DNA from: a virus
DNA length: 24,001 nucleotides
Reading direction: 5' to 3' (one strand)
IMG/VR virus record: IMGVR_UViG_3300021392_000012
Coordinates: 1-24,001 of that record
Position numbers and translations under genes: made by a program
The notes under the pieces: model-generated
Told to the model about the DNA's origin: nothing
Database searches by the model: none
What the model saw: the letters and a program-made list of their open reading frames with translations, nothing else
Part shown: piece after piece, positions 427-21,156 of the stretch
Layout: each line of letters opens with the position of its first letter
How positions within the stretch are numbered: position 1 is the stretch's first letter

Positions 427-1235
427 CTAATAATGTTTCCTTCTCGGCAGTGTGAACAGAGCAAGCATCCTCTCTAGAACTCCTGAATTCCACCGTACAC
501 TTACAATTTGTCCTACACTCACATTGTTGTGTAGGCAAGATTAACTCAGATAGTGAAACCCATCCTAGAGCTGCATATTTAGGGCAGTGGCGGCAATGCT
601 CACCGCTTCCAAGTACCCGTCGAGCCTCCCTCATTCCGTTGGTTTTTGCGATCAGCTTCGCTGGTGCCGTAGGCAATCGCAGATTTAGTTCCCCAAAACG
701 TCACCTTCCCCGACTCCGAAAACATTCTGAGGCGGTTGGTTAGCTGTGCAGGAGATACTTTTTCCTGGAGTATATCTATCGCTAAATATTTGATTCCAAA
801 TCGCTCACCGGTTAGAACATCTTTTCCTGAATGATACTGTTGCTTGAGGTTTCTAGCTACTAACAGGAATTTATCAGAAGTTAAATCCTCTTGCCTATCC
901 AATGCCTGAATCATCTGGGCAATATGGATATGTTTAAGAGCTAATCCTGCTTTCTGTTGCAGCTCTTTTAAGTCTATTCTCCCTTCGTTGTAATCGTTTC
1001 CTAGTTTGATTAGAGTCTGTTTTTCTTGCCCAAAATAGCGCTCAGCCTGAGTGCGTACCGCTTCCATTGATGCGAAAGCTCCATTATCCCGATATCTCCA
1101 TCGACGCGAACGCACATCGAAGGAAATTTGGGGCAGAGCATCTGAATAGAATGTAGAATTTAGAATGTAGAATTTAGAATTATTTTTTTCTTGATTTTTC
1201 ATTCTAAATTCTTCATTTTTACATTGATTTTTCAT
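407..1235 (-). pseudogene. Minor head / head morphogenesis-like protein, split by a +1 frameshift
   Basis: Two overlapping frames make one protein. The upstream frame (1235 to 600) encodes a helical, Mu F-like minor head body with the stretch DVRSRRWRYRDNGAF near residue 36 and KVSPAQLTNRLRMFSESGKV. The downstream frame (676 to 407) encodes the conserved Cys-rich tail: RRVLGSGEHCRHCPKYAALG, then LILPTQQCECRTNCKC. This tail normally follows the body in one polypeptide. The switch falls near 620-632, where the minus strand reads AATGAGGGAGGCTCG: removing one G from the GGG restores a continuous frame. The first 31 residues are encoded by 7-base repeat DNA, and the conserved part starts at about residue 32. 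The cause may be mutation, sequencing error or programmed frameshift; I cannot tell which. Confidence 0.7.
1148..1181. repeat. 7-base short tandem repeat (AGAATTT/AGAATGT)
   Basis: Nearly five units alternating AGAATGT and AGAATTT. It lies inside the 5' end of the minor head reading frame and codes for FYILNSTFYSD-type residues that precede the conserved region. Such heptanucleotide repeats are known from filamentous cyanobacterial genomes. Confidence 0.8.
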
Positions 1236-4512: not shown

Positions 4513-6501
4513 TCACAGCTCCATCGCTACTTCTATAAAATCTGCCGCTGTCACCGTTGCTAGTTCCTCCCACTCTTCATCAGTGAGGATGTCATTGCTA
4601 TCAGTACGAATTTCGGAGCGCATCACCTCACGTATGCCACCAAAGAATTCAGGGGGCATCACCTGCTTGTAAATCGCCTCGGCTTCTTCCTTGGACTCCA
4701 CACCAATAAAGAGCTTCTCTTCATCGAACTTCCCATCAATATACTGTGCGATTGCAAATATCTTCGGTGAGTTCAACTTAGTCCCCACATACACATCCAA
4801 TGCCATACCATCAGCACCTTTGGTCTTTTGGATGTGTCCATAGCCAACAGGCAGCATCTTACCGTGACGTAGCTGGAAAGGAAAGTATTGAAGTCCAATA
4901 TTAAACCCATTCCACTCAATGATCCGCTGTACCGGAGTGGCATCATCTGACCTAAGCTGACGAGCCGACTCTACAGGCTGGTCATGCCCTGCGACTTTCT
5001 TGTTCCGTGCTTTGCTAATTGCGCTCGTGCGATCGCTAGCCTCAACCACTGTTGGGGTATTTCTTCCTTGGAACCACACCCCCCATAGAGCATCTTCTCT
5101 CTTTGAGTCATCCTCACTACTAACGTCATCACTCAAAACAAAGTCTGGGGAAAACTGGGAACCTTCGTACCCTGAGCGCACTTCTTCTGGAGTAATTGCT
5201 CCAATCTCAGTCAGGGTCTTACTTCTGTCAGCTGCTAGCTTCTCGTATTCCATGCGTTCTGTATCTGTTAGCTGCAAGTCGAAGGGAACTTTGATGTCCC
5301 ATGATTCGGGAATTTTTCCCTTTGATGGGGAATCTTTGGCAAGAAAAGTATAAATTAGCAACTGCCGTAAGTTACTTACCCAGCTGTGAGCATAGTCCTG
5401 CACAAGGATTGCCCACTCAGAGCGCATAGCCAACCCTTGATTATTAGTCAGTCCCTGGCTCCCTATCTCTCCGAATAACTTAAACTTTGGAATACCTGAT
5501 GCTGCCGCCCAACGATTTTCTAGGGATTCCATAATGTCCTTTGCCCCACCGTAGGAACGAGTTACACTCCCCGGTTCCTCATTTTCCAAATCGTAGTAGA
5601 TACCCCTAACCACAGACTTCCCCATATCCAAAGCAAGGGAGCGGTTGATAATTTGCTGCTGACCTGCTTGAGTTCCTTTCTGTTTGTCTTGTAGGAGTAT
5701 CTGTCCCAAACCTTTCATACCAAGGGTAAATACATCGTAATCAGCCAACATTGCGCTGCCAGCTTTGATACCCTGGAGCCAATCAATGTAAGCATCGTAC
5801 ATTGCTTGGATAACGCTCACACCGTCGTCATTCAGTCCTGTTTTCAGGTAGTTCCGTCTACTGTAGATTCGATTACCCCAAAATGGCAGAATTCGAGACT
5901 TGTGGATTTTTGCCCCATACTGTTGGTCTGATTCTACAGAATACAAACGGTAAAAGTTGGGTTGGCGAGTCCTGTTATTGCCCCAATCTGGGTAAAGCTC
6001 CCAGCAGTCATAAACCTGGAGCCATCTAATAGATTTAATATTATTTTTATCAACGGGTTCACTAAATTCTTTCCCGTCATCTATACCAATTACTATATAA
6101 GCTTTGCCAAATTGACGAGCTAGGATAGCTGCAATAGGGAAAGCATCATTAGCACCATAAATATCCGCTTCATCTTCTTCGGTAGTTTTGTCCTCTCTGC
6201 TCCCCAGCTCTGCAATGTATTCCATCATCAAATCAGGAAGATTATCACCTGAAGAATTGTTAGCTATTGCCAAGTGGAACCAAGCTTTAGCAGCACATTC
6301 AGGATAAAGGAACACAGCCTTCCTGAGCAACTCGTCTCGGTAGGGTAAAGCTTCTAGGGATTGCCTAGTGAGTCGTGTTTTACTTGTGTTGATAGTAACA
6401 TTCTCAGTTTTACTTCGAGATGTCCCAATCCCGGTGTAGGGGTTGCTTAAAGCTGCAAAAGCTCCAAACAAAGCTTGAGAATCAATTCGCAGTTCACTCA
6501 T
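4513..6501 (-). CDS. DUF1073-type portal protein with C-terminal InPase-like domain
   Basis: A 662-residue protein. Residues about 30-470 look like a DUF1073-family portal, the dodecameric ring through which DNA enters the head: WLQVYDCWELYPDWGNNR, SRILPFWGNRIYSRRNY, WAAASGIPKFKLFGEIGSQG, and DLQLTDTERMEYEKLAADRS before the C-terminal end of the portal part. Residues about 475-520 form a linker with ALWGVWFQGRNTPTVVEA. Residues about 529-632 form a separate domain with KGADGMALDVYVG (561-573) and DEEKLFIGVESKEEAEAIY (593-611). These are the signatures of the phage 'InPase' (inorganic pyrophosphatase-like) domain. The gene lies between a connector-like protein (ATGA overlap at 6498-6501) and the protease, as expected for a portal. 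The function of the fused domain is unknown. Confidence 0.8.
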   Translation of the reverse strand: MSELRIDSQALFGAFAALSNPYTGIGTSRSKTENVTINTSKTRLTRQSLEALPYRDELLRKAVFLYPECAAKAWFHLAIANNSSGDNLPDLMMEYIAELGSREDKTTEEDEADIYGANDAFPIAAILARQFGKAYIVIGIDDGKEFSEPVDKNNIKSIRWLQVYDCWELYPDWGNNRTRQPNFYRLYSVESDQQYGAKIHKSRILPFWGNRIYSRRNYLKTGLNDDGVSVIQAMYDAYIDWLQGIKAGSAMLADYDVFTLGMKGLGQILLQDKQKGTQAGQQQIINRSLALDMGKSVVRGIYYDLENEEPGSVTRSYGGAKDIMESLENRWAAASGIPKFKLFGEIGSQGLTNNQGLAMRSEWAILVQDYAHSWVSNLRQLLIYTFLAKDSPSKGKIPESWDIKVPFDLQLTDTERMEYEKLAADRSKTLTEIGAITPEEVRSGYEGSQFSPDFVLSDDVSSEDDSKREDALWGVWFQGRNTPTVVEASDRTSAISKARNKKVAGHDQPVESARQLRSDDATPVQRIIEWNGFNIGLQYFPFQLRHGKMLPVGYGHIQKTKGADGMALDVYVGTKLNSPKIFAIAQYIDGKFDEEKLFIGVESKEEAEAIYKQVMPPEFFGGIREVMRSEIRTDSNDILTDEEWEELATVTAADFIEVAMEL

Positions 6502-6980: not shown

Positions 6981-8420
6981 TTAGGTAAGTAACAATGGAT
7001 TGATAAGTGCTAGTTGCCTTGCCTCTTCAATATAAGCAAAAGCCACAGCCCATGCCATCACACTATCATCATGCCCGGTAATCGCTTCCCTGGAATATGA
7101 GCTAAAACTCCTCAGCTCATCAATCCCGTCCCAATCTGGAGGGAACTGAATTAAGCCTTCTTCCAATGCGATCGCAATCCTGTCGGTATTGATAATTTTA
7201 CTGTTCTTTGTGGTAGTCACAGCCTCAATCCGAACACCAGGGAAATGTTCAATAAGGCGTTCCTGGACTGTTCTACCACCTCCATTAGTTTCTACTGCCA
7301 CCAAAACAGGAGTGTACTTATCGACCAACTTACTGCATTGATTAATCGAAGAAGTAATTGATGCATTACTTTGTTTATACTCAGCAACCAGCTGGTAAGG
7401 GATATCAGAAATATCCCAGACTTGGCAGCTAAAAGCATCATCACCACCAAAGTTAGGGTCAATGCCGAATAGGTAAGACTTGGCAAACACAGGATCAGAC
7501 CATTCCCCATGAGCTGAAGCGGAAATAGCCTCTGCCTTAAATAGCCGTGATTCAGATTTCTTTACCCGCCAATTCCCATCCAGAAGTCTAGCCCGTTCCA
7601 CCACATCTTGAGCTTCGAGGTTGGCTAGGTAATGGGGGTCTTTTTCTAATAGGGCTGGGTTATCAGTGAGCTTTGCACTGATGAAGGTGAAGGATTTGGG
7701 GTTACTGTTGGGATATCGTGATCGCAAATCCTCGGCTGTATCTGCCCAAATTACCTCATCCGACTTCACTATAAACCAACGCAACACCCCAGAGCGCTCA
7801 GGGTAGGGGTAACCTTGGGGGTTTATCCACCAATCAATCAGCTCAGCCAGCCAGGATTCAGCATCAGGGTTACAAGTTGCTCTGAGTTGAGGTTTTATGC
7901 CGTGAGTAGACCTCATTCTGGTCATGAGGTAGAAGAACATTTTCTTAGAAAAGTGGGTCAGCTCATCGTAAGCAATTCTACTCACCTGTGCGCCCTGCCA
8001 ATTATAGATATTCTTCTCATGTTGTAGATGAGCAAACCGAACACTAGCACCCGTTGGGAACGTCCACCTCAACCATTTCTGATTAGATGTAGCACCAAGG
8101 GAAGGATACCAAATACCAGCTTCATCCCATAATCCACCCTCATTGGTAATTTCTGGGGAAGTCCTGCGAAATATTACACCGCCGTAATGGGGATTCGACC
8201 GTAGTTCTGGTTTGGCAAAGTCAAGGAGCAAGGCTAGGGTTTTTCCTGAGCCTGCACTGCCACCATAGATGGCAATGTCAGCATCACTATCCAGAAACTC
8301 CTGCTGCTTGGGTTGAGGTTGGGGAAGTCCGCTATCAGTATCAGTTGGTTTCGGGGCTAGGAGGGAGTTTAGCTTGACTCGCGCTGCCATTTTGGGGGTT
8401 AATGACGGGAATTTCTCCAT
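6981..8420 (-). CDS. terL: Terminase large subunit
   Basis: A 479-residue motor that packages DNA into the prohead and cuts it. The ATPase has Walker A GGSAGSGKT (53-61), Walker B RIAYDEL (148-154) and the coupling motif ATCNP (181-185). The C-terminal RNase H-like nuclease has the expected acidic residues: D321 in FGIDPNFGG, E377 in AVETNGGG, and D451/D452 in GHDDSVMAWA. Length is normal for the family. It overlaps the small-subunit gene by 80 bases, an unusually long overlap. The ATG at 8420 has a weak TAGGGTAG upstream; an internal ATG at 8390 is an alternative but has no ribosome binding site. Confidence 0.95.
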   Translation of the reverse strand: MEKFPSLTPKMAARVKLNSLLAPKPTDTDSGLPQPQPKQQEFLDSDADIAIYGGSAGSGKTLALLLDFAKPELRSNPHYGGVIFRRTSPEITNEGGLWDEAGIWYPSLGATSNQKWLRWTFPTGASVRFAHLQHEKNIYNWQGAQVSRIAYDELTHFSKKMFFYLMTRMRSTHGIKPQLRATCNPDAESWLAELIDWWINPQGYPYPERSGVLRWFIVKSDEVIWADTAEDLRSRYPNSNPKSFTFISAKLTDNPALLEKDPHYLANLEAQDVVERARLLDGNWRVKKSESRLFKAEAISASAHGEWSDPVFAKSYLFGIDPNFGGDDAFSCQVWDISDIPYQLVAEYKQSNASITSSINQCSKLVDKYTPVLVAVETNGGGRTVQERLIEHFPGVRIEAVTTTKNSKIINTDRIAIALEEGLIQFPPDWDGIDELRSFSSYSREAITGHDDSVMAWAVAFAYIEEARQLALINPLLLT

Positions 8421-8994: not shown

Positions 8995-10047
8995 TCACCA
9001 ATCCCTCAATGTTGCCATCTCAGCCTTCACCCAAGCCAGATTATGCCGCCAGTACGGGAAAGTCGCGCCAGCCTTACGCCAAGTTTTCTTCCACAGTGCA
9101 TTAGCAATAGGCGATCGCCCGTCCGTTGATAAACTCAACCCATACTCATCGCAAAGCCTCAGCAAACCAGGCAGCGGCGGGTCATAACCTTGATGCGGCT
9201 TGAGCCAAGTCACCCCAAAGATATGCACCTTTTGGACTCCAGATTCAGCAATCAGGGGAATTACCCGCCGCATTGTTTCCCAAAACACGGGCATCCACTT
9301 CTTCTGTTTGCCTAAAATACACCAACCCCCTAACCCAAGCACATCATCAGATGTCGCGTGCTCTAAAACCTGCTCTACGCACCTTTGATACTGAGGCGCA
9401 TTAACGCCCTGGCAACTCAGCACCAGTTTGTAACCGTCAAGTCGATAACGTTGAGAAGCGAGATACTGCGCTGCTTCCACAGTCTGCCGAACAGCTTCCC
9501 ACGCCTCATCGACCGACCAGCGCTGCTTAATTCGCTTCCCGTCAATGAATTTCTCATCGATTAGCCTGTCGTAGGAAACGAGCCAAGTTTCCCTACAGTT
9601 GGGCATCTCAGCTAGGGTTTGAAGCTGGCGATTAAGGGAACCTTCAAAAGTCAACCTAGAGTTGGTCAAAACATCCGTGAAAGCGCACGAATCAAATAGT
9701 AAGCGGACTCTGGATAAATCAATGCCCTTGCAATTGGGAACTTTGGTGATGGTGGCCGTTTTTCCTCCTACTTTACCAGTGCGCCCTGGCGAAAGCTGCA
9801 CGCTGCCACAGATATTGTTCAGCTCTGAGCGCCCCTGGTAAGCATAAGTATTCGCCTGGGCGTTCACAAAACACTCCAAATCTGGCTTAAGCTGAGACTG
9901 CCTGACCCCATACGCTTCAGCCAGATATTCTACAAGAAACGCCTGAAACCTTGGAGTAACAGAGACTCCTGCATCATCAATCAGTTGTTCAGCAAGGAAC
10001 TCAAAATTCGGAACCTTGGGAATAATTGGGGAATTATTCTTGAGCAA
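8995..10047 (-). CDS. dpdA: DpdA-like 7-deazaguanine DNA transglycosylase
   Basis: A 350-residue protein that resembles the DpdA branch of the tRNA-guanine transglycosylase superfamily, which swaps guanine in DNA for a 7-deazaguanine base. Visible landmarks: LLFDSCAFTDV (D119 matches the first catalytic Asp; the family usually has DSG/DSGAF, here DSC), LVSYDRLIDE (157-165), LVLSCQGVNAPQY (208-220), DVLGLGGWCILGK (235-247), KVHIFGVTW (273-281) and LSLSTDGRSPI (D309, candidate second Asp). The gene follows the methyltransferase fusion by 26 bases and precedes the terminase genes. There is no ATG at the 5' end; the likely start is TTG at 10047, with GGGGA upstream. No preQ0 synthesis genes are present here, so the substrate would have to come from the host. 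Confidence 0.75.
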   Translation of the reverse strand: MLKNNSPIIPKVPNFEFLAEQLIDDAGVSVTPRFQAFLVEYLAEAYGVRQSQLKPDLECFVNAQANTYAYQGRSELNNICGSVQLSPGRTGKVGGKTATITKVPNCKGIDLSRVRLLFDSCAFTDVLTNSRLTFEGSLNRQLQTLAEMPNCRETWLVSYDRLIDEKFIDGKRIKQRWSVDEAWEAVRQTVEAAQYLASQRYRLDGYKLVLSCQGVNAPQYQRCVEQVLEHATSDDVLGLGGWCILGKQKKWMPVFWETMRRVIPLIAESGVQKVHIFGVTWLKPHQGYDPPLPGLLRLCDEYGLSLSTDGRSPIANALWKKTWRKAGATFPYWRHNLAWVKAEMATLRDW

Positions 10048-10073: not shown

Positions 10074-13000
10074 CTAATTCTTTCCCACCAGCACCAAATC
10101 TGATGTTGATTTACCATTTTTGGGAATAGTCGGACATTGCAGATTGGCTAAACGTTGCTCAATGCGATCGCGCACCTCCACCAGTTGCTCAACACTCATC
10201 TGGTCAATGTTGCTCGTGAAGCCAATTATGTAATCTTCGACTGGTGGGGATTTTGGGACTGATGTATGATGCCTATTGCCATTGTTACTGTGATCATTGC
10301 CCTCCGGAAGAGTGCCATTGCTATTATTGGCAGGTAATGGTTGTGAATTTTCTACATCCGCTAGGGGTAGCCCTGAGGTTTCCCCATTCTCTGTTTCCTG
10401 TTCTCCATTCCCTGTTTCCTGCTTCCCCTTCCCGATACTTCCGACCTGCATCGCAGCAGTAGTGCCGTGTTTGGTGGTGTAAGTTCGGGTTTTGGGTTTA
10501 TCCTCACTACGAATTTTCGCAGTGAGACTCTTGCGAATATTCCGCACTGTTGCCTCGGAAACCTTACATTGTCGGGCAATCTGATAATTACTCCAACTAC
10601 TCCATTCCTGATCTCTGAGGAGCATCATCACAGCACGGCGCTTATCTGCACGGCTACGAGGCTTAGCTGCTTTATGATCAGCGTTGGCGGCAGCAGCGTA
10701 TAATACGGCATCGCGACGGGTTCCCTGGTGAATGATTACTTGAATATCCTCAATCCCTAATTCTTCATAAGCCTTGCAACGGTGGAAACCGTCAGCTAAC
10801 CAGTCGTTTTCCCCATCATAGAAAACGTCAGCCGGATCTAGTTCAGCGCCTTCTTCTATCGCTTCTTTCAATGTAGCGACGTGAGCCATATCAAGTTTCT
10901 CACGGGGCTGAGTTCCCCCATCGCGGCGTATTTGGGCAATGGGGAGAGCGGTAGGAGTTAGAAGTTGAGACTTGAGGAAGGAAAATTGGGATTTAGATTT
11001 TGTTATCTGAGGAATCTGGGGGACACCATGCACCCGACCATGCTTACTAAAAGCTTTCTGAAATTTCTCAAAATTCTCCCCTAGATAAAATACTGAGCTA
11101 GCAAAGGGAGCGGAGGAACTATTTCCCTTAAACTTGAGCCTTCCATTCCACAAGCACTTGGGGAACTGATCAAGTTTCTGATACCATTTGGTGTCAGTGG
11201 CAGATTTTACTAGCACCACTGCCTCTTTCACTCCACCAGCTAAGTATTCTTCTAGGAGCTTATCCACCCAAGAGGCTGTGGCAGAGTATGGGGGATTCAG
11301 GTAAATCCTGCCCTCACCAATTGCCCAAGATTTGCTCAATCCATCATCTTCAATAGTGTAATGATTGGCAGCGGGGATATTTGGAGCTGTGTGGGAGTTT
11401 GAGCAAGGATCAAGGTCGATGGTTCCAAGGGTTGCGATGGTCGCTTCGCGAACCGCCGCAGGCATCGCAGCTTCTTTCACTTCATCGGGACTGTAATGCT
11501 CGTCAGTTTTGCTGCTGGTTTGTACAGATAGAGCATGATTACTCTTGCAGTCCTGGCTTTTCTGTTCTGATTCAATCGGTTCAAACTTGAACCGAATCAC
11601 CCAAACCACTTTTTGATCATCACCATCAAAATAATGCTCAATGAATTCAGCCAGAGTCAGTTCAGGGAAACCTTCTTTGATTAGGTCGGCCATTGGCATA
11701 TCAGCCAATTTTTCTTGGTAGGGTTTTTCTGTTAGGGTCAGCCAGCCTACTTGTTTACCTCCATATCGCTTATCCTTGTCTAAAGCTTGAAACCTTGCCC
11801 CTTCCTCAAAAATCTTGATAAATTTCAGAGCATGAGAATCCTTCCAAACTCGACGAGTAACTGATTTTCCTTTAAGTAGTTGGGGATAGGTTTTCCCAAA
11901 ACTGATACTCAAACCAGACTCTTTAACATCATCTCCCCACTCCCCTATCCTTCTTACCAATTCCCCGACTTTGTCAGCCCAATCCTTCAATTCTTTCTTT
12001 TGATACTCAATAGTAGGCATCGCATTCTCACAGCCCATCTCCTGCACAATTTCCCCACTCTCATCCAGCTCAGCTGTGTGGTTGGAATTGGTTAGAGTTG
12101 GGGTAATCTGTCCGATTGGCTTAAGAAAAAGCTCTACAAACTTGGGAGGGACAGAATATCCCAAAATCGAGCCTGCCACCCCCACTTCTTCTGGAAACTC
12201 GTACCAATCTGAAAAGCTTTGAAGGCGGCGCACACACTCAATAGTGACCTGTTTTACCTGGCCAGACGCTCCTACGTCGCTACCACTGACGCTATCAGGG
12301 AGCCAGATGTCAGCGAATTTAGAGCGACTATTATTTCTGTGATCAGTGAAATGCGATCGCAAAATTGTGTTTGCGGGTTTAAAACTAGGTATCGCAGCAT
12401 ACCTACTGCGGACACCAACGCGATCAATTAGCAGTGGCTCTGAAGCATTATTCTCCAAAAACTTGTCAACTGAACGCCGTTGTCCCTTGAGCAGTTCCGA
12501 GTCAGGCAAACTAGGAATCAAGTCCTTAATCGCTTCGTACCAGCTAATTTTTGCAGATTTTTCGGGTAGCTCCAAAGGTGGTTGGGCATCACGGGATGCC
12601 CAGGCAATAAACCTTTTCCGCGCCTGGGGAACACCATAATCTGACATATCCACAATGGTCGATTTGAGATTGTAGCCAAGAGACGGGACAACAAACCCAA
12701 TCTGCTTCCAGCTCTGAGATTTTTGATAAGCTGGGACATTCTCCAAGACAAAGTGCTTGGGCTTAATTTTCTTAATTGCGGCTACTACTGCTTTCGCTGC
12801 TGCCACATCATCATCCTGCTCGGTACCACCCTTCTTGGCAGCACTGAAGTTGGAGCACATTGGGGATGCCCATAGAATATCTGGCTCTTGGGGAAATCCA
12901 GGGAAATCCTCTGCGGCTAGTTCCTGCACTGTTCGACGAATAACCCGACATTGAGGGAAATTAGCCTCGTGAGCATCACTCATAGCCTCGCTCAAATCAG

Positions 13001-13340
13001 GCTTGTCTGGGTTATATTCAACCGCCAATAACGGTTCAATTCCCGCGTCCATCAGTCCAGCCTCGACACCGCCGCCACCAGAGAACAAAACTACTGCTGT
13101 AGGTTTCTTCTCGACTTTGGCAATTAACTCCATGCAATATGGGACAAGACCATGCCCTGCCTCGTGTACCCAAAATTGAGGCATTCCACCAGGGGAGAGA
13201 AACTTCTCGGTAATGATGCCAATTTTTCCATTCTTCATAGTAGCAATCATGCCCACTTCTGATGAGTCGTAAAGCTCCATTAAATGCTGCTTATTTGCAG
13301 TTTCTTGGCTTGCAGTTTTGGTATTTTTGCGTCGTACCAT
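10074..13340 (-). CDS. Four-part DNA modification protein: C5-MTase, ASCH, Dam N6-MTase, ParB/HTH
   Basis: A 1088-residue fusion. Residues 80-408 form a cytosine-5 methyltransferase: motif I LFSGGGGVEAGL (85-96), motif IV SPMCSNFS with C162 (PMC instead of the usual PPC), ENV (200-202), VPQARKR (237-243), RRLQSF (371-376) and GYSVPP (394-399). Residues about 470-590 resemble an ASCH/PUA-like domain (SVTRRVW ... VVWVIRF). Residues about 615-770 form a Dam-type N6-adenine methyltransferase with DLDPCSN (642-648) and LNPPYS (681-686). Residues about 795-940 form a ParB-like domain (WLADGFHRCKAYEELG; RADKRRAVMMLL) plus HTH (NYQIARQCKVSEATVRNIRK). Residues 1-78 include a small beta-rich segment of unknown type. 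GGAGGTGA precedes the ATG at 13340. All visible catalytic residues are present, so both methylases may be active; target sites are unknown. Confidence 0.85.
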   Translation of the reverse strand: MVRRKNTKTASQETANKQHLMELYDSSEVGMIATMKNGKIGIITEKFLSPGGMPQFWVHEAGHGLVPYCMELIAKVEKKPTAVVLFSGGGGVEAGLMDAGIEPLLAVEYNPDKPDLSEAMSDAHEANFPQCRVIRRTVQELAAEDFPGFPQEPDILWASPMCSNFSAAKKGGTEQDDDVAAAKAVVAAIKKIKPKHFVLENVPAYQKSQSWKQIGFVVPSLGYNLKSTIVDMSDYGVPQARKRFIAWASRDAQPPLELPEKSAKISWYEAIKDLIPSLPDSELLKGQRRSVDKFLENNASEPLLIDRVGVRSRYAAIPSFKPANTILRSHFTDHRNNSRSKFADIWLPDSVSGSDVGASGQVKQVTIECVRRLQSFSDWYEFPEEVGVAGSILGYSVPPKFVELFLKPIGQITPTLTNSNHTAELDESGEIVQEMGCENAMPTIEYQKKELKDWADKVGELVRRIGEWGDDVKESGLSISFGKTYPQLLKGKSVTRRVWKDSHALKFIKIFEEGARFQALDKDKRYGGKQVGWLTLTEKPYQEKLADMPMADLIKEGFPELTLAEFIEHYFDGDDQKVVWVIRFKFEPIESEQKSQDCKSNHALSVQTSSKTDEHYSPDEVKEAAMPAAVREATIATLGTIDLDPCSNSHTAPNIPAANHYTIEDDGLSKSWAIGEGRIYLNPPYSATASWVDKLLEEYLAGGVKEAVVLVKSATDTKWYQKLDQFPKCLWNGRLKFKGNSSSAPFASSVFYLGENFEKFQKAFSKHGRVHGVPQIPQITKSKSQFSFLKSQLLTPTALPIAQIRRDGGTQPREKLDMAHVATLKEAIEEGAELDPADVFYDGENDWLADGFHRCKAYEELGIEDIQVIIHQGTRRDAVLYAAAANADHKAAKPRSRADKRRAVMMLLRDQEWSSWSNYQIARQCKVSEATVRNIRKSLTAKIRSEDKPKTRTYTTKHGTTAAMQVGSIGKGKQETGNGEQETENGETSGLPLADVENSQPLPANNSNGTLPEGNDHSNNGNRHHTSVPKSPPVEDYIIGFTSNIDQMSVEQLVEVRDRIEQRLANLQCPTIPKNGKSTSDLVLVGKN
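10377..10436. repeat. Degenerate 7-base repeat inside the linker of the modification fusion
   Basis: On the minus strand this stretch reads as imperfect 7-base units (GGAAACA, GGGAATG, GAGAACA, GGAAACA, GAGAATG). It encodes residues 969-988 (KGKQETGNGEQETENG), a low-complexity linker after the ParB/HTH module. Because 7 is not a multiple of 3, three units make a 7-residue protein period. Confidence 0.7.
11434..11468. repeat. 35-bp cyanobacterial dispersed-type repeat inside the Dam domain
   Basis: The stretch has ends GCGATG and CATCGC in inverted orientation and a core TTCGCGAACCGCCGCAGGC. It looks like the GCGATGCC...GCATCGC family of short dispersed repeats common in filamentous cyanobacteria. 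It lies in frame in the modification fusion and encodes residues about 624-635 (AAMPAAVREATI), just before the Dam motif DLDPCSN. Confidence 0.55.
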
Positions 13341-13359: not shown

Positions 13360-14205
13360 CTAAACAGAACACTCACAAGGCATAAAAATGGTTGATTGAA
13401 CCCAATATTCCCGTTGATTGGGTTTCACAAATTTGGCAACATCAGCCCAAAATCTTTGATGGGGAATATGCTCAGAAGCAGGAATACAAGCAGTTTTCAT
13501 CGCATCAAAAAGAGGTTCGAGACTTTCAATAGATTCCCCTGGCAAAATCGTGTAACCAATGTAGTTCTCTGCTGCTTTAGCTTCTTCCCAAACATCTGGG
13601 CGAGTACAGTAAACAACGTACCAATGCCGTCTACCAGCCTTTAGGCATCCAACACAATTAGCGTGTTTAAATTGTGCATAAGTACAAGGCGGTTTAATAC
13701 CAATTTCTACTGTGCTGTGGATAGTGCGTTTCCACTCTGCCAAAGGATAGCAACTTGAATAGCCTAGGGAATGAATAATTTTTTGGCGTCGAGCAATCCT
13801 GTCAGCCTCTGAATTGTCAAAACCGTAGTAGATGATGGCATTACCTGGGGTACAATTCTTGTTTAACCAGTTGTAAAAAGGAGCCGTTTTGAGTCTGTTT
13901 GTACAAAGTGGTTGACCATTACCAACCTTAAACGCTTTGGCTATCATGCAGACTTGAAACTGGTTGGGAAGTCGTTCTGGTTGGGAAATATCTAGGCAGT
14001 TAGCGTAAGTGATTGGCAATCCTAAGTAATCAACAACCTCCCGCTTAAATCTTTTAATGTCAGAATGTTCAAAATTGGGGTTAATGTCGTGATTCAGCAG
14101 AACAACATTATTGATGCCATACTTACGAACTACTTCAATTGCTACTAGTGCGCTACTATGTCCGCCTGAATAGCAAACTATATGCTTGGTCTTTTTGTGT
14201 TGCAT
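13360..14205 (-). CDS. PP-loop ATPase / PAPS-reductase-like protein
   Basis: A 281-residue member of the adenine nucleotide alpha-hydrolase (PP-loop) superfamily: VCYSGGHSSALVAIEVVRKYG has the SGGxSS pyrophosphate loop at residues 13-18. Further family-like features are CTNRLKTAPF (101-110), matching the CTxxLK motif of PAPS-reductase/DndC-like proteins, and HANCVGCLKAGRRHWYVV (181-198), whose C184 and C187 with C101 could hold metal or an Fe-S cluster. Such proteins activate a substrate with ATP, then transfer sulphur or an amide. The gene lies between the HNH gene (stop and start overlap as TAATG) and the methyltransferase fusion. A role in nucleotide or DNA modification is plausible from context but not shown. 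QueC, DndC or a cysH-like role cannot be separated by eye. Confidence 0.75.
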   Translation of the reverse strand: MQHKKTKHIVCYSGGHSSALVAIEVVRKYGINNVVLLNHDINPNFEHSDIKRFKREVVDYLGLPITYANCLDISQPERLPNQFQVCMIAKAFKVGNGQPLCTNRLKTAPFYNWLNKNCTPGNAIIYYGFDNSEADRIARRQKIIHSLGYSSCYPLAEWKRTIHSTVEIGIKPPCTYAQFKHANCVGCLKAGRRHWYVVYCTRPDVWEEAKAAENYIGYTILPGESIESLEPLFDAMKTACIPASEHIPHQRFWADVAKFVKPNQREYWVQSTIFMPCECSV

Positions 14206-14636
14206 TATTTTAAAGTTCCAAATAAGTTCAACTGTCCATTACTCTCTAACTTCTGCTGCCTCTTCCTAGCTCTCGTTGATGCAGCTTTTTTGGCGTGATG
14301 CTGTGCGTCGTATCGAAGGTGACAAACACTGCACAGGGCTTTTAAGTTGTCGGAATTGCAGTTAGCTGGATTGTGGTCAAGATGAGCAACTGTGAGGACA
14401 AATCTTCTGTATTTTGGTTTGTCATCAGAATCATAATCATCAAACAAATCCATGTACCACTTAAGACCTCCAAAATGAACGGCATTGCCATACAATTCAT
14501 GGTCAAACTCATCCCAGCTTTGTGATGGTCTTTTGCAGGGACGTTGGCATTCTTGGCAATGCCAATCTGCTGCCTCTTTTATCTCTAGTGCTATCGATTC
14601 CCAATTCTTGGGATATAGCTTGCGATTCATTGGCAT
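14205..14636 (-). CDS. HNH endonuclease with clamp-binding-like tail
   Basis: A 143-residue nuclease-like protein. The HNH core is VAHLDHNPANCNSDNLKALC followed by SVCHLRYD (residues 83-110), with paired cysteines at 27/30 and 102/105 that should form the structural zinc site. Catalytic-type histidines are at 85/88 and H106. The C-terminus reads GQLNLFGTLK; QLNLF fits the QLxLF bacterial sliding-clamp binding pattern. It resembles the HNH protein at 20210-20500 (shared PxNW...I..A.KE.A.W.C..C). It lies between DnaB and the PP-loop gene, so a role in replication, recombination or homing is possible. An ATG at 14630 is an equally good start. Confidence 0.85.
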   Translation of the reverse strand: MPMNRKLYPKNWESIALEIKEAADWHCQECQRPCKRPSQSWDEFDHELYGNAVHFGGLKWYMDLFDDYDSDDKPKYRRFVLTVAHLDHNPANCNSDNLKALCSVCHLRYDAQHHAKKAASTRARKRQQKLESNGQLNLFGTLK

Positions 14637-14681: not shown

Positions 14682-16028
14682 TTAGGTCAAACTTAGGAAC
14701 TGACTGGTCTCAGGTTTGAAAAGGCATTTCACAGTTCCCGTTTTTCCACCCCGATGCTTGCCAACAATGATTTCGGCTATCCCTTGGTCTGGGGTGTCTG
14801 GGTTATAGTAATCGTCTCGGTAGAGAAGCATAATCACGTCAGCTGCTTGCTCTAATCCCCCTGATTCTCTGAGTTGGGAAATAGTTGGGCGCTTATTTTT
14901 CTGCCCTTCTACTGAACGATTGATTTGAGCTAAGGCAAGGAAGGGAACATCAAATTCTTTAGCTATCGATTTGCACCCGTTGGCAAGCTTATCAAGCTCA
15001 GATACTCGGTTAGTCCTACCGTCCTCCGAGCCTAGTAGTTGGAGATAATCAAGTATCACCAATCCAGGATGCCCGTAGGTGGCAGTAGCACGTCTAATAC
15101 CTGCTCGTATTCGCATCAGACTTAACCCAGAGCCTGGGGTGTCATCAATCCAAAGTGGAGTATGCCCAATCTTGCCAACGGATTGAGCTAGCTGATCATA
15201 ATCCGCATCTGTTAGAGTTCCTTCCTCAATTAGCCTGCTATCGACACCAGAATCTCTGGCAATAATCCTTGTCATCAGCTCATCCCGATCCATTTCAGCA
15301 GAGAAGAAAATGACAGGTTGACTCTGTAAAACTGCTATTTGGTGGGCTAGCCAAACTGATAGTTGAGTTTTTCCAATCCCAGAGCGACCGGCAACCACAT
15401 AGAGTTTTTTCTTCTTGAGCCCACCAACTAGATTATCTAGGTCATAGATCTCAGTCCTTAACCCCAACTCCTGAACCCCAATCTGCTTGAAAATCCTCGT
15501 GGCAATATCCCCAGGGGTTTCAATATTGGTAGACGACCCCTGCTCCGACAACTTGAAAATCTTCTGTTCGCTATCGTCAAGAACATTTTCCAATTCGGTA
15601 GATGTTTCATAACCCATCTGCACAATCTCGTTGCCAGCCTTAATCAATTGGCGACGAGTAAACTTGTCCATCACCAACTCTGCGTATCGGTCAATATTAA
15701 CCGCTGATACAGTACGTTCAACTAGCTGTGCTAATTTAACCTGACCTCCAATTTTCTCCAAGGTATTGTGGTCATACAACCAGCTGGTAACACTCATCAA
15801 ATCCGTTGGTTTACCCAACAGATACAGCGATAGTGCAGCCTCGTAAATACTCCTGTGAGCATTGATATAGAAAGCCTGTGGGTACAAAATATCCACAATC
15901 CGACTCATAGCTTCTGGATCTAGCAGAATCCCTCCCAGGATTGCCTCCTCTGCATCAATGTTCTGAGGGGGTAAGGCGTTACCTCCAAGAGCTTGAAAAC
16001 TGACAATGTTGTTTGTATCTGCGTACAT
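14682..16028 (-). CDS. dnaB: Replicative DNA helicase, DnaB family
   Basis: A 448-residue hexameric helicase that unwinds the fork. The N-terminal domain (LPPQNIDAEEAILGGILLD, residues 19-37) and the RecA-like domain are both complete: Walker A GRSGIGKT (214-221), FFSAEMDRDEL (241-251), Walker B LVILDYLQLL (323-332), QINRSVEGQKNKRP (368-381) and LRESGGLEQAADVIMLLYRD (386-405). Length matches bacterial DnaB, with no intein. It starts five bases after the initiator-like gene stops (TAG, then GTAA, then ATG), so both are likely made from one message. Phage-encoded DnaB can replace the helicase-loader strategy of lambda P. Confidence 0.95.
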   Translation of the reverse strand: MYADTNNIVSFQALGGNALPPQNIDAEEAILGGILLDPEAMSRIVDILYPQAFYINAHRSIYEAALSLYLLGKPTDLMSVTSWLYDHNTLEKIGGQVKLAQLVERTVSAVNIDRYAELVMDKFTRRQLIKAGNEIVQMGYETSTELENVLDDSEQKIFKLSEQGSSTNIETPGDIATRIFKQIGVQELGLRTEIYDLDNLVGGLKKKKLYVVAGRSGIGKTQLSVWLAHQIAVLQSQPVIFFSAEMDRDELMTRIIARDSGVDSRLIEEGTLTDADYDQLAQSVGKIGHTPLWIDDTPGSGLSLMRIRAGIRRATATYGHPGLVILDYLQLLGSEDGRTNRVSELDKLANGCKSIAKEFDVPFLALAQINRSVEGQKNKRPTISQLRESGGLEQAADVIMLLYRDDYYNPDTPDQGIAEIIVGKHRGGKTGTVKCLFKPETSQFLSLT

Positions 16029-16032
16029 TTAC

Positions 16033-17295
16033 CTAAAACTCCATTACTTCTTGCATCCATTGGGGAACTTCTGATAGGGCAAGCTCACCGCTCCTAACCA
16101 ACTCTGGTAGACAATCAGGAATCAGCCTTTTATTGCCTTTGGGGGTATTTCTAATCCGCCTTAATAGTTTTTCTTTCTGTTCTGCTGCTTTCTCTTCTGG
16201 GGATGGTGGCTTGCGGATTGTGTATGAGGGGGCTGTGAGGGGCTGTGAGAGTTGTTTATCTTCCTTTGAAGCAGAGTAAGCATCCCACTCGATAAGAAGC
16301 TCGTCACGGCGCTTAAAATCGTATTTCCCAGCTGAGATGTGCTTCCGAACCTTCGTGATCAAGTCTCCGTTTATTAATCCCTGGTAGGCGGGGTAGTCTG
16401 ACAAAGACTTGGACATCCACTCTTCAAACCCCTGCTCAAACTGTCTCGGACTCTTGCTAGTCTCCCACGGCAGATGGTCACTCCCGTCAAGATCATTTTG
16501 GTAACGAGAACCATTCTCAATCGGGGCAGCGGAATCTTTGATCCTTTGGAGAGTCTGGTGGGTTGGGTTTAATTCTTCCTTTTTTTGATCGACTGAAGAG
16601 GAGAGTATCTCGGTTACCTCTTCTTGTCCGGAGGAATTTTCTTTACACACACTCTCTTGGGTGGGGGGTGGGGGGGAGTGTATGTGTGTGGTCTCTGAAG
16701 TAGTCTCTGAAGTAGTCTCTGTATATATGGAGTGTTTGGCGCTTTCCGCCATTTCTGTTTGGCGCTTTCCGCCATTTCTGTTTGGCGCTTTCCGCCGTTC
16801 TAGTTTGGCGCTTTCCGCCATTTTTGTTTGGCGCTTTCCGCCATTTTTGTTTGGCGCTTTCCGCCGTTCTAGTTTGGCGCTTTCCGCCATTCTAGTTTGT
16901 ACAGTATCTTCAACTCCTTCAAACCCTGACTCGGATGAAGTTTGAGCGGCAATTGTCTCAAGCAAAACTTCGGTATTAATGCGGTAAAAAAGCTTGCAAG
17001 GAACGCCACACTTCTTTTCCTGCAAGAGTTTCTTCTGTTTGAGCAGCCTCCTTGCAGTCTCCTGCTCACGTCGTGTTAACGCAGTTTCCTCGTACCATTC
17101 TTTAGCTGTTTTGTAGATCCAGCTATCCTCATCCTTTCCTCTCGGAGTCCAATAAAATAACTGGCTAAGGAATAGTCCAGCTGTCACACTTCCAGCTATT
17201 TTGGCAAAAATGCGATGATAGGCAATTGGTCGCTCCAGCAGTACCTGGAGATACCTGTACCGCTCTTGCGGATCCAGAATATTTTTAGATATCAT
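16033..17295 (-). CDS. Lambda O-like replication initiator with internal repeats
   Basis: A 420-residue protein. Residues about 20-115 look like a winged helix of the phage initiator/DnaD-RepA N-terminal type (RPIAYHRIFAKIAGSVTAGL; LFYWTPRGKDEDSWIYKTAKEWYEETALTRREQETARRLL). Residues 136-187 are a protein repeat with 23-residue period (MAESAKLERRKAPN.NGGKRQT). A low-complexity stretch follows (TETTSETTSETT, then PPPP), then a charged C-terminal part (about 270-420) that includes FEEWMSKSLSDYPAYQGLIN. It lies directly upstream of dnaB, as lambda O lies before P. It should bind the embedded iterons and load the helicase; this is inferred from architecture. The ATG at 17295 has only a weak AAGTGA upstream. 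Confidence 0.75.
   Translation of the reverse strand: MISKNILDPQERYRYLQVLLERPIAYHRIFAKIAGSVTAGLFLSQLFYWTPRGKDEDSWIYKTAKEWYEETALTRREQETARRLLKQKKLLQEKKCGVPCKLFYRINTEVLLETIAAQTSSESGFEGVEDTVQTRMAESAKLERRKAPNKNGGKRQTKMAESAKLERRKAPNRNGGKRQTEMAESAKHSIYTETTSETTSETTHIHSPPPPTQESVCKENSSGQEEVTEILSSSVDQKKEELNPTHQTLQRIKDSAAPIENGSRYQNDLDGSDHLPWETSKSPRQFEQGFEEWMSKSLSDYPAYQGLINGDLITKVRKHISAGKYDFKRRDELLIEWDAYSASKEDKQLSQPLTAPSYTIRKPPSPEEKAAEQKEKLLRRIRNTPKGNKRLIPDCLPELVRSGELALSEVPQWMQEVMEF
16659..16731. other. G-rich tract, 12-bp repeats and TATATAT beside the iterons
   Basis: Next to the iterons, on the downstream side in gene direction, the plus strand carries GGG-T-G6-T-G7 (16659-16676), enough G runs to form a quadruplex. 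Next come 2.6 copies of GTCTCTGAAGTA (16691-16721) and TATATAT (16722-16728). It encodes the low-complexity protein stretch TETTSETTSETT and a proline run. It may be the unwinding or structural part of the origin, as lambda has an AT-rich segment on one side of its iterons. Confidence 0.45.
16735..16895. other. Seven 23-bp iterons inside the initiator gene: candidate replication origin
   Basis: Seven direct repeats with an exact 23-base period start at 16735, 16758, 16781, 16804, 16827, 16850 and 16873. All share TTTGGCGCTTTCCGCC; the last seven bases vary among ATTTCTG, GTTCTAG, ATTTTTG and ATTCTAG. Each unit also holds a small dyad (GGCG-CTTTC-CGCC). Copies 1-3 and 4-6 form two near-identical 69-base superunits. 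There are no unique spacers, so this is not a CRISPR array. Repeats inside an initiator gene directly before a helicase gene match the layout of the lambda origin. On this analogy it is a replication origin. Confidence 0.7.
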
Positions 17296-20557: not shown

Positions 20558-21088
20558 TTAATGAGAATCCGCTTTGACTTGACGAAATGTAATTGAAATT
20601 CTTCTCTGTTTAACAGGGCGTAATTCGTGAGTCCACAAGTATCGTGCCTCATCGGTCATGACAGCCAAACAACAAGGTTGTACAGCTACTTCAATAGGGT
20701 GATTATCTTTTGTGAAAACTAATATTCCTGGACTTCCAAGAGAAAGAGTAATGATAGTCGAGCCAAAATTTGAAACATGATCTATGTGTTTTCCAATTTT
20801 TTGCCCTTTTAAATATTCGTTCACTATGACTTGATTACAAATAGGTAACCACTCCCTTAAACACTTGGATAGCTTTTGCAGCCAAAGCGGTAGTTCTCCT
20901 AAATAATCACGAGATTTATTTAATGGACGGCGATTATAGCGATATTGCCAACCATAGTGCTGCGTTCTTCTTTTTAGGGAGTTATCCCAAGGCTGGGAAT
21001 CTATCTTTTTTAGCAACCAATCATGTTGATATTGGTCGATGAATTCTGGAATTATTATTAATCCTGGAACTAATGATGTGTTTTGCAT
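20558..21088 (-). CDS. AlkB-like 2-oxoglutarate/Fe(II) dioxygenase
   Basis: About 176 residues. AlkB-type features: VPGLIIIPEFIDQYQHDWLL at the N-terminus, WDNSLKRRTQHYGWQYRYNRRP (nucleotide-recognition loop), IVNEYLKGQKIGKHIDH with HxD iron ligands (H118/D120 counted from the upstream GTG at 21139), TIITLSLGSPG, TDEARYLWTHEL (H171, third ligand) and VKQRRISITFR (2-oxoglutarate arginines). Such enzymes remove alkyl groups from DNA or RNA bases. Two starts are possible: GTG at 21139, inside a perfect 20-bp palindrome, or ATG at 21088. I chose 21088 because the domain begins there and neither start has a good ribosome binding site. No partner gene is seen. Confidence 0.8.
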   Translation of the reverse strand: MQNTSLVPGLIIIPEFIDQYQHDWLLKKIDSQPWDNSLKRRTQHYGWQYRYNRRPLNKSRDYLGELPLWLQKLSKCLREWLPICNQVIVNEYLKGQKIGKHIDHVSNFGSTIITLSLGSPGILVFTKDNHPIEVAVQPCCLAVMTDEARYLWTHELRPVKQRRISITFRQVKADSH

Positions 21089-21136
21089 TGTTCTCAAGTA
21101 TTGGTAGTCCCCACTAAATAATGAGGTGAAATTGCT

Positions 21137-21156
21137 CACTGGGGAATTCCCCAGTG
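21137..21156. promoter_or_regulatory. Perfect 20-bp palindrome CACTGGGGAA/TTCCCCAGTG
   Basis: A 20-base perfect palindrome with an EcoRI site in its centre. Its left edge coincides with a potential GTG start of the AlkB-like gene. There is no T run on either strand, so it is more likely an operator or an RNA hairpin that hides a start than a terminator. Confidence 0.55.

Follow-up and report, generated by a model that had tools for sequence, protein, structure and literature searches.

What could be gained by joining two DNA methyltransferases of different chemistry and several further modules in one reading frame of a phage is the question raised by a gene in IMG/VR virus record IMGVR_UViG_3300021392_000012. 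The stretch analysed, referred to here as the window, comprises positions 1 to 24,001 of this virus record (24,001 bases), and the gene encodes a protein of 1088 amino acids (aa). An earlier note on this DNA had given its position (10074-13340) and length correctly, leaving the minus strand unstated, and had read the fusion as a coordinated modification strategy. The larger finding of the present analysis is that the protein varies module by module, in frame, among its relatives. We regard it, with moderate confidence, as an anti-restriction DNA methyltransferase that is modular and built by recombination, present in cyanobacterial phages and in at least one element carrying a VapE-type primase; its close relatives add, drop or replace whole modules, probably to keep pace with the many host restriction systems.

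Modules of the fused protein

The open reading frame (ORF) begins with ATG, about 13 nt downstream of a GGAGG-type ribosome-binding site, and all modules given below lie on the minus strand. Both methyltransferases proposed in the earlier note were found to be complete. The C5-cytosine methyltransferase module (aa 79-414, 12099-13106) matches PF00145 above the Pfam cut-off over aa 85-408 (E 1.7e-31; 110.3 bits, cut-off 22; profile positions 6-321 of 324) and the folds of M.HaeIII and M.HhaI in the PDB, and its motifs I, IV, VI, VIII and X are all intact (LFSGGGG, SPMCSNFS, ENV, QARKR and GYSVPP). The P-M-C of motif IV (aa 160-162, 12855-12863), which on motif reading holds the presumed catalytic cysteine, had been called uncommon; the remark carries little weight because PMC and PVC are usual in this subfamily, with 10 PVC, five PMC (two pieces being one gene, hence four genes), one PPC and one unmatched stretch among 17 distinct C5 stretches. 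The Dam-type N6-adenine methyltransferase module (aa 604-765, 11046-11531), also delimited by a homemade hidden Markov model (HMM), matches PF05869 over aa 626-759 (E 1.8e-13; 51 bits, above the cut-off of 28.1) with the motifs DLDPCS and NPPY intact. Against the phage N6A methyltransferase model TIGR01712 it scores 40.5 bits and does not reach the equivalog cut-off of 97.05, which reads as family resemblance, not equivalog status.

The ParB/HTH part is recognisable in one resource and falls below the cut-offs of another. The ParB-fold module (aa 791-880, 10701-10970), with box II ADGFHR and a homemade HMM match, overlaps a match to the PHROG ParB-like family 1033 (aa 799-938, 2.5e-16), which also lends support to the HTH module, while the ParB N-terminal domain PF02195 gives 13.2 bits in the window against a Pfam cut-off of 26.3, and P0002-P0004 are under this cut-off as well. 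The HTH module (aa 881-948, 10497-10700) is supported by a homemade HMM and by HTH_23 at 1.7e-4, again under the Pfam cut-off. The chain ends in a helical C-terminal tail from aa 1036 (10077-10235, DYxIGFxSNIDxM...) and begins with an N-terminal module (aa 1-78, 13107-13340) defined by a homemade HMM and predicted structure, in which the predicted strands at about aa 31-77 suggest a small SH3-like beta domain.

The ASCH-like domain of the earlier note is a conserved, folded module (aa 478-588, 11577-11909) whose name found no support. It is predicted with a local distance difference test score (pLDDT) mainly above 80 and matches PHROG 11705, a family of no named function. The ASCH model PF04266 gave zero matches in the window (G000) or in the relative L002 (G002) even at E<=10, Pfam on three stand-alone relatives returned nothing bearing on ASCH, and a PDB profile search with the region gave chance-like matches only. 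The label stays provisional, as it derives from the succession of predicted strands and helices and from general features of ASCH sequences. In L087 and L090, the module is fused to what by eye resembles a family A DNA polymerase with exonuclease.

The whole chain was modelled with AlphaFold2 from a 23-sequence alignment. With a mean pLDDT of 74.8 and a predicted template modelling score of 0.47, the model shows how each module folds, but not how the modules are placed relative to one another. Well-folded modules are joined by low-confidence linkers in this model: such stretches lie mainly between modules (aa 415-451, 463-475, 591-602 plus several pieces up to 650, 774-793, 968-1042 and 1067-1088). 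They include the mainly low-confidence linker between the C5 and ASCH-like modules (aa 415-477, 11910-12098), which contains one helix, and the disordered linker between Dam and ParB (aa 774-793, 10962-11021). With the whole chain as the query, Foldseek against the PDB retrieved C5 methyltransferases, M.HaeIII at the top, and the other modules were not among the matches listed.

Gain, loss and exchange of modules in one reading frame

To find relatives, the ORFs of loci L001-L072, L084-L093 and L094-L182 were scanned with ten homemade module profiles; in the last set (89 loci), every matching ORF was taken in below L113, and beyond it those ORFs with several core modules. A search for the same domain order, as the earlier note had advised, thus yielded ten distinct genes from viral contigs and cyanobacterial genomes that join C5 to at least one adenine methyltransferase, and the order C5, Dam, ParB, HTH, D12, tail shows no permutation among them. 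C5 and Dam are combined in the window, L066 and L106; C5, Dam and D12 in L002, L003, L064 and L111 (the last without its 5' end); and C5 and D12 in L004, L044 and L065. The earlier observation of two chemically different methyltransferases and DNA-binding modules in one phage protein accordingly stands, and relatives go further, carrying three methyltransferases. ParB is present in eight of the ten genes and absent from L066 and L106.

The full-length relatives are L002 from viral contigs and L003 and L004 from the metagenome-assembled genome of Symploca sp. SIO2C1, which indicates filamentous cyanobacteria as hosts. In these three, a D12-class adenine methyltransferase (PF02086, E 7e-23 to 1e-22) sits after the HTH-side linker and ahead of the C-terminal tail. 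The window has a D12-less junction at this place (10212-10273, minus strand), where homology to L002 stops at 10274 and resumes at 10211. L004 is without Dam, and the Dam of L111 has just 38-39% identity to that of the window, L002 and L003, while its D12 is 89% identical to the D12 of L002 and its HTH 98.5% identical to the HTH of L004. The ASCH-like module of the window is a different allele from that of L002-L004 (45-47% identity, synonymous sites saturated). Gain, loss or replacement thus affects Dam, D12, the ASCH-like module and HTH independently of one another, which indicates interchangeability rather than one fixed coordinated set. A modification strategy, as proposed in the earlier note, is plausible, since both enzymes retain their catalytic motifs and evolve under purifying selection; that it is coordinated would follow from the shared chain. 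In L111, where the ASCH-like module is missing, the region before Dam keeps a short stretch (SGLAISFGKTYE) similar to the first part of this module in the window, likely to be a deletion scar. Two further segments were seen in relatives: in L106 (3959-7027), the C5-Dam fusion is followed by about 517 aa that are coiled-coil-rich by eye and have no Pfam match above cut-off, and about 215 aa without a Pfam match lie between Dam and ParB in L064 (aa 597-810).

The C-terminal tail was found in all nine ParB-bearing genes tested, including L067 and L068, in which the homemade profiles detect no methyltransferase module; ParB, HTH and tail therefore look like one protein of their own. From this distribution, D12 appears to have been inserted into a ParB/HTH/tail protein, with C5 and the other modules joined at its front. 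Among 388 sampled genomes of the cyanobacterial class, 50 match P0002 at E<=1e-20, almost all by single modules, and in a family-level sample eight of 20 genomes match it at E<=1e-30; such single-module genes are a likely source pool. In 50,697 isolate phage records, no single place covered 80% of P0001 or of P0002, and in 72,556 plasmid records none covered 80% of P0001. An assembly artefact, which the earlier note had named as a way in which the fusion might fail, was rejected, as the same joins recur in independent contigs of both the viral and the genome collections. The coding sequence of L064 also recurs unchanged in three viral contigs, L094-L096 (4011 of 4011 bases), and the D12-less ending of the window, PKSPPVxDY, is found in L067 too.

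Divergence along the gene is equally uneven. The window and L002 share 97-98% identity over the terminase, portal and neighbouring packaging and head genes, and yet L002 has D12 and the window does not. The high-identity block begins at window position 10211, in the tail of the methyltransferase gene, the aligned remainder of which has 76-82% identity. The corresponding synonymous divergence (dS) is 0.06 for portal, 0.11 for TerL and 0.04 for w350, the gene directly downstream of the fusion, compared with 0.83 for C5, 0.47 for Dam and 0.78 for ParB, with the ASCH-like module saturated. Between L002 and L004, dS is 0.22 for C5, 0.065 for the ASCH-like module, 0.04 for X, 1.45 for ParB, 1.9 for HTH, 0.10 for MID, 0.016 for D12 and 0 for the tail. 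Third-position identity in this pair reaches up to 1.00 within C5 near aa 230, drops at ParB and climbs again at about aa 980 after HTH, so that exchange need not follow module edges exactly. The ratio of nonsynonymous to synonymous divergence (dN/dS) is 0.07-0.16 for the C5, Dam, ParB and D12 modules in comparisons among the window, L002, L003 and L004, except for D12 between L002 and L004, where it is 0.64 with almost no changes. The methyltransferase gene is an intragenic mosaic under purifying selection. Upstream genes have diverged between the window and L002 as well (dS 0.82 for DnaB and 0.66 for HNH), which means that the high-diversity stretch exceeds the methyltransferase gene; in-frame gain and loss of modules is seen in that gene alone.

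Function and competing explanations

In the anti-restriction reading that we favour, C5 and Dam, and D12 in relatives, would be separate catalytic cartridges, each methylating its own target in the phage DNA, while ParB, HTH and the C-terminal tail would form a DNA-binding, perhaps nucleoside triphosphate (NTP)-dependent loading scaffold of the chain. Recombination, for the most part at disordered linkers, would add, remove and replace the cartridges, and near-identical phages would thereby differ in the sites protected from restriction. Such self-methylation is the most economical reading given what is known of the families, the phage context, the variable composition, the purifying selection and published analogues. 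Parts of a study of cryoconite phages describe methyltransferases as the commonest known genes of variable islands (PMC7468147), and sections of a survey describe ParB-fold/methyltransferase fusions as frequent in phages, with a suggested anti-defence role (PMC12704722).

Several points weigh against this reading. Activity and methylation are predictions from sequence, and site counts give no obvious protected site: the window has 46 GATC sites where 119 are expected, and GGCC, with 4 sites against an expected 49, is strongly depleted. GGCC is also rarer than expected in every related host or element DNA tried. Members in host genomes could have a host or superinfection role, and a nuclease or NTPase function is conceivable for the ParB domain. 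The scaffold is not obligatory, since L066 and L106, two of the ten fusions, are without ParB. Site avoidance was also tried as a route to target specificity and rejected, as GGCC and CTGCAG are avoided alike in the window and in related host and element DNA and no module specificity is readable from them; both sites are almost absent from the window and from L044, L045, L047, L049, L064 and L065 (phage and related host or element DNA).

The neighbourhood of the gene could point to a defence system instead. The fusion would then supply the modification function of a mobile defence cassette, of the restriction-modification or another type, with w350 (8995-10047, minus strand), an uncharacterised protein of 350 aa, or another neighbour as the effector. 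The w350 gene directly follows the fusion in five of the ten members (window, L002, L004, L044 and L065); the 15-19 kb examined at L044 and at L065 gave no match to any further window gene; and among the 388 sampled genomes, w350 occurs in G001 only, in two copies, each beside the fusion. Moreover, L044 adjoins a VapE-like primase gene (PF05272), so that the pair of fusion and w350 also travels outside this tailed-phage context. However, w350 was not found beside the fusion in L003, L064/L094-L096, L066, L106 and L111, and it has no meaningful match, or match above cut-off, in Pfam, PHROG or PADLOC, its weak resemblance being to DpdA and not to a nuclease. We therefore consider a cassette of this kind improbable. 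A role of the methyltransferases in regulating phage genes, in timing replication or in packaging, and not in evading restriction, would suit the position of the gene between replication and terminase genes in the window, L002 and L004. Regulation should, however, keep the set of specificities, whereas Dam and D12 are lost and Dam is replaced while terminase and portal remain nearly identical, and we hold such a role to be very improbable. A third proposal turns on the ParB domain, which would be an NTP-regulated nickase or nuclease from which the methyltransferases shield the phage's own DNA, uniting self and non-self discrimination in one chain. The box II arginine is retained in 15 of 15 distinct ParB stretches, and the portion of the literature on the Bacillus cereus ParB-methylase Bce_0392 drawn on here describes non-specific nicking of DNA by its ParB domain (PMC5512222). 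Partition proteins, by contrast, use ParB in a non-nuclease CTPase role according to parts of the survey (PMC12704722), and L066 and L106 do without ParB. Nuclease activity in the fusion is putative, and this arrangement, too, strikes us as a poor prospect.

Several known systems invite comparison. The multispecific C5 methyltransferases of Bacillus subtilis phages carry one catalytic core with several target-recognition domains. They resemble the fusion in that one phage protein serves several sites (as predicted here), in anti-restriction and in modular specificity, and differ from it in that the fusion combines distinct catalytic domains of different chemistry, two in some members and three in others (C5, Dam and, in relatives, D12). 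Fused restriction-modification genes such as the Eco29kI hybrid (PMC3039593) likewise place two DNA enzymes in one chain, but no endonuclease was recognised in the fusion. The ParB-methyltransferase fusions covered in sections of two sources (Bce_0392, PMC5512222; survey, PMC12704722) share a ParB fold and a DNA methyltransferase in one chain typical of phages; as described there, they pair ParB with adenine or S-adenosylmethionine methyltransferases, whereas here ParB stands behind C5 and Dam and, in relatives, before D12. The polyvalent proteins of phages and conjugative elements, as portrayed in parts of PMC5512222, also hold many conflict-related domains per polypeptide, including methylases and ParB folds, but their hub domains (zincin peptidase, SWI2/SNF2 ATPase and ArdC) were not found here by a Pfam scan, and delivery alongside the DNA would be hypothetical for the present protein. 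The orphan methyltransferases of variable islands, in the portions of PMC7468147 concerned with them, offer near-identical phages that differ at the methyltransferase locus, read as anti-restriction; there whole genes vary, and here whole modules inside one reading frame. No description of a C5-Dam-ParB(-D12) fusion or of repeat-derived linkers in phage methyltransferases was found in the open-licence literature searched, a result that speaks only weakly for their absence.

In phages, anti-restriction methyltransferases are commonly pictured as individual enzymes, each gained or lost as a gene, whereas the unit of exchange here is a domain in one frame, and a single chain holds up to three methyltransferases of two chemistries together with a DNA-binding core of ParB type. 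Two questions become testable: whether tethering in one chain allows a protein to modify unrelated sites efficiently, and whether the shuffling of domains at linkers derived from repeats lets phages diversify the sets of sites that they methylate. The family also supplies natural variants with or without Dam, D12 or the ASCH-like module.

Repeats at the ParB edge and neighbouring genes

A 7- or 8-bp tandem repeat reaching the per-gene codon-shuffle threshold (20 shuffles per gene) stands at the ParB edge in most members, namely in seven of nine ParB-bearing genes, with the ParB start of L068 placed by hand, or in seven of ten when L111, which lay outside the original tests, is added. The units are of the CGCGTCCC type in L002, CCCCATCT in L003, of the CCCGTGTC type in L004, of the GAATGTA type in L044 and L067, and CCCAACT in L068; no repeat at the ParB edge of L064, L065 or L111 reaches the threshold. 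In six of the nine genes (six of ten with L111), the strongest repeat of the whole gene falls in a 43-aa zone at the ParB edge (chance 6e-7 under independence), a zone that was set post hoc, after the sequences had been seen, and in genes that are related. The window is a weak case, with a score of 0.61 at the ParB edge (aa 785-804, overlapping the disordered linker) and its strongest repeat (0.68), a 21-bp (3 x 7) tandem repeat found with Tandem Repeats Finder, in the disordered stretch after HTH (10380-10433, minus strand). The window, L002, L003 and L004 together have 66 ORFs with 120 aa or more, and five of these contain a repeat scoring 0.8 or higher: three of the four methyltransferase genes as opposed to two of the 62 others (Fisher 0.0009), the exception among the four being that of the window.

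Two of these units are dispersed in host genomes, in counts that include overlapping placements. Three copies of CCCCATCT with at most one mismatch occur 145 times in G001 and 315 times in G393, compared with 0 in the reversed control, and the GAATNNA type 766 and 633 times, compared with 51 and 7 in the control; the dispersed-unit counts in G395 are 14 and 0. Such dispersed host repeats may have served as in-frame joints, in that intergenic spacers before a ParB gene would have been read into coding sequence and would now be linkers and crossover sites, possibly with a copy-number phase switch, an account that we think rather unlikely. As neither 7 nor 8 is divisible by three, the gain or loss of repeat units would also frameshift all that lies downstream (ParB and D12) and spare C5 and Dam, and, if the account is true, would be a possible phase switch of the phage methylome. 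About evenly balanced, in our judgement, is the view that the repeats are mere passengers, tolerated as insertions in linkers and without a role in joining or exchanging modules. The linkers are disordered in the predicted structure, three fused members (those named above) have no such repeat, and the unit differs between L002, L003 and L004; the position specificity noted above speaks against it, although other linkers are equally disordered.

Repeats were also seen in other genes of the window. Another phage gene, unrelated to the fusion (ORF 600-1235, minus strand), contains a translated 7-bp repeat at 1147-1181, and a 26-aa stretch of this ORF matches the ParB protein of L067 at 73% identity, apparently a common repeat-derived peptide. 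About seven 23-bp tandem repeats at 16733-16899 lie within the replication-protein gene 16033-17295, in frame as 69-bp units.

The neighbouring genes are phage-like, with PHROG matches to a RepO-like replication protein, HNH, terminase small subunit, portal and major head protein; by reading of the sequences, 6981-8420 would be the large terminase and 14682-16028 DnaB. The similarity of w350 to DpdA is suggestive, not settled: hhalign against eight phage DpdA-type proteins gave E 4e-4 and a probability of 35% over 132 columns, with a query profile almost without diversity, and aligned DSxAF, GLGG and HxFGxT in order (the motifs sought being DSGAF, GLGG and HGFG of DpdA/TGT). Against DpdA of phage 9g alone, the probability was 0.6%, and the predicted model of w350 is poor, with no significant PDB match. 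In the phages Hilltopfarm, Lephleur, Finch and phiSM, the DpdA-like gene has an annotated ParB-like gene beside it or at a distance of one small gene, which fits w350 as DpdA and proves nothing. Just upstream of the fusion lies a PAPS-reductase/SspD-like gene (13360-14205, minus strand; PHROG 424, 3.2e-31; PADLOC SspD, 7.4e-10), which was not found in L002-L004, followed by the HNH gene (14205-14636; PHROG 1571). The portal-like protein (4513-6501, minus strand) carries a C-terminal domain of the inorganic-pyrophosphatase type (PF18823, 6.1e-18), and an AlkB-like 2OG-Fe(II) oxygenase (20558-21139, minus strand; PF13532, 3.2e-16) is encoded in this phage together with the methyltransferases.

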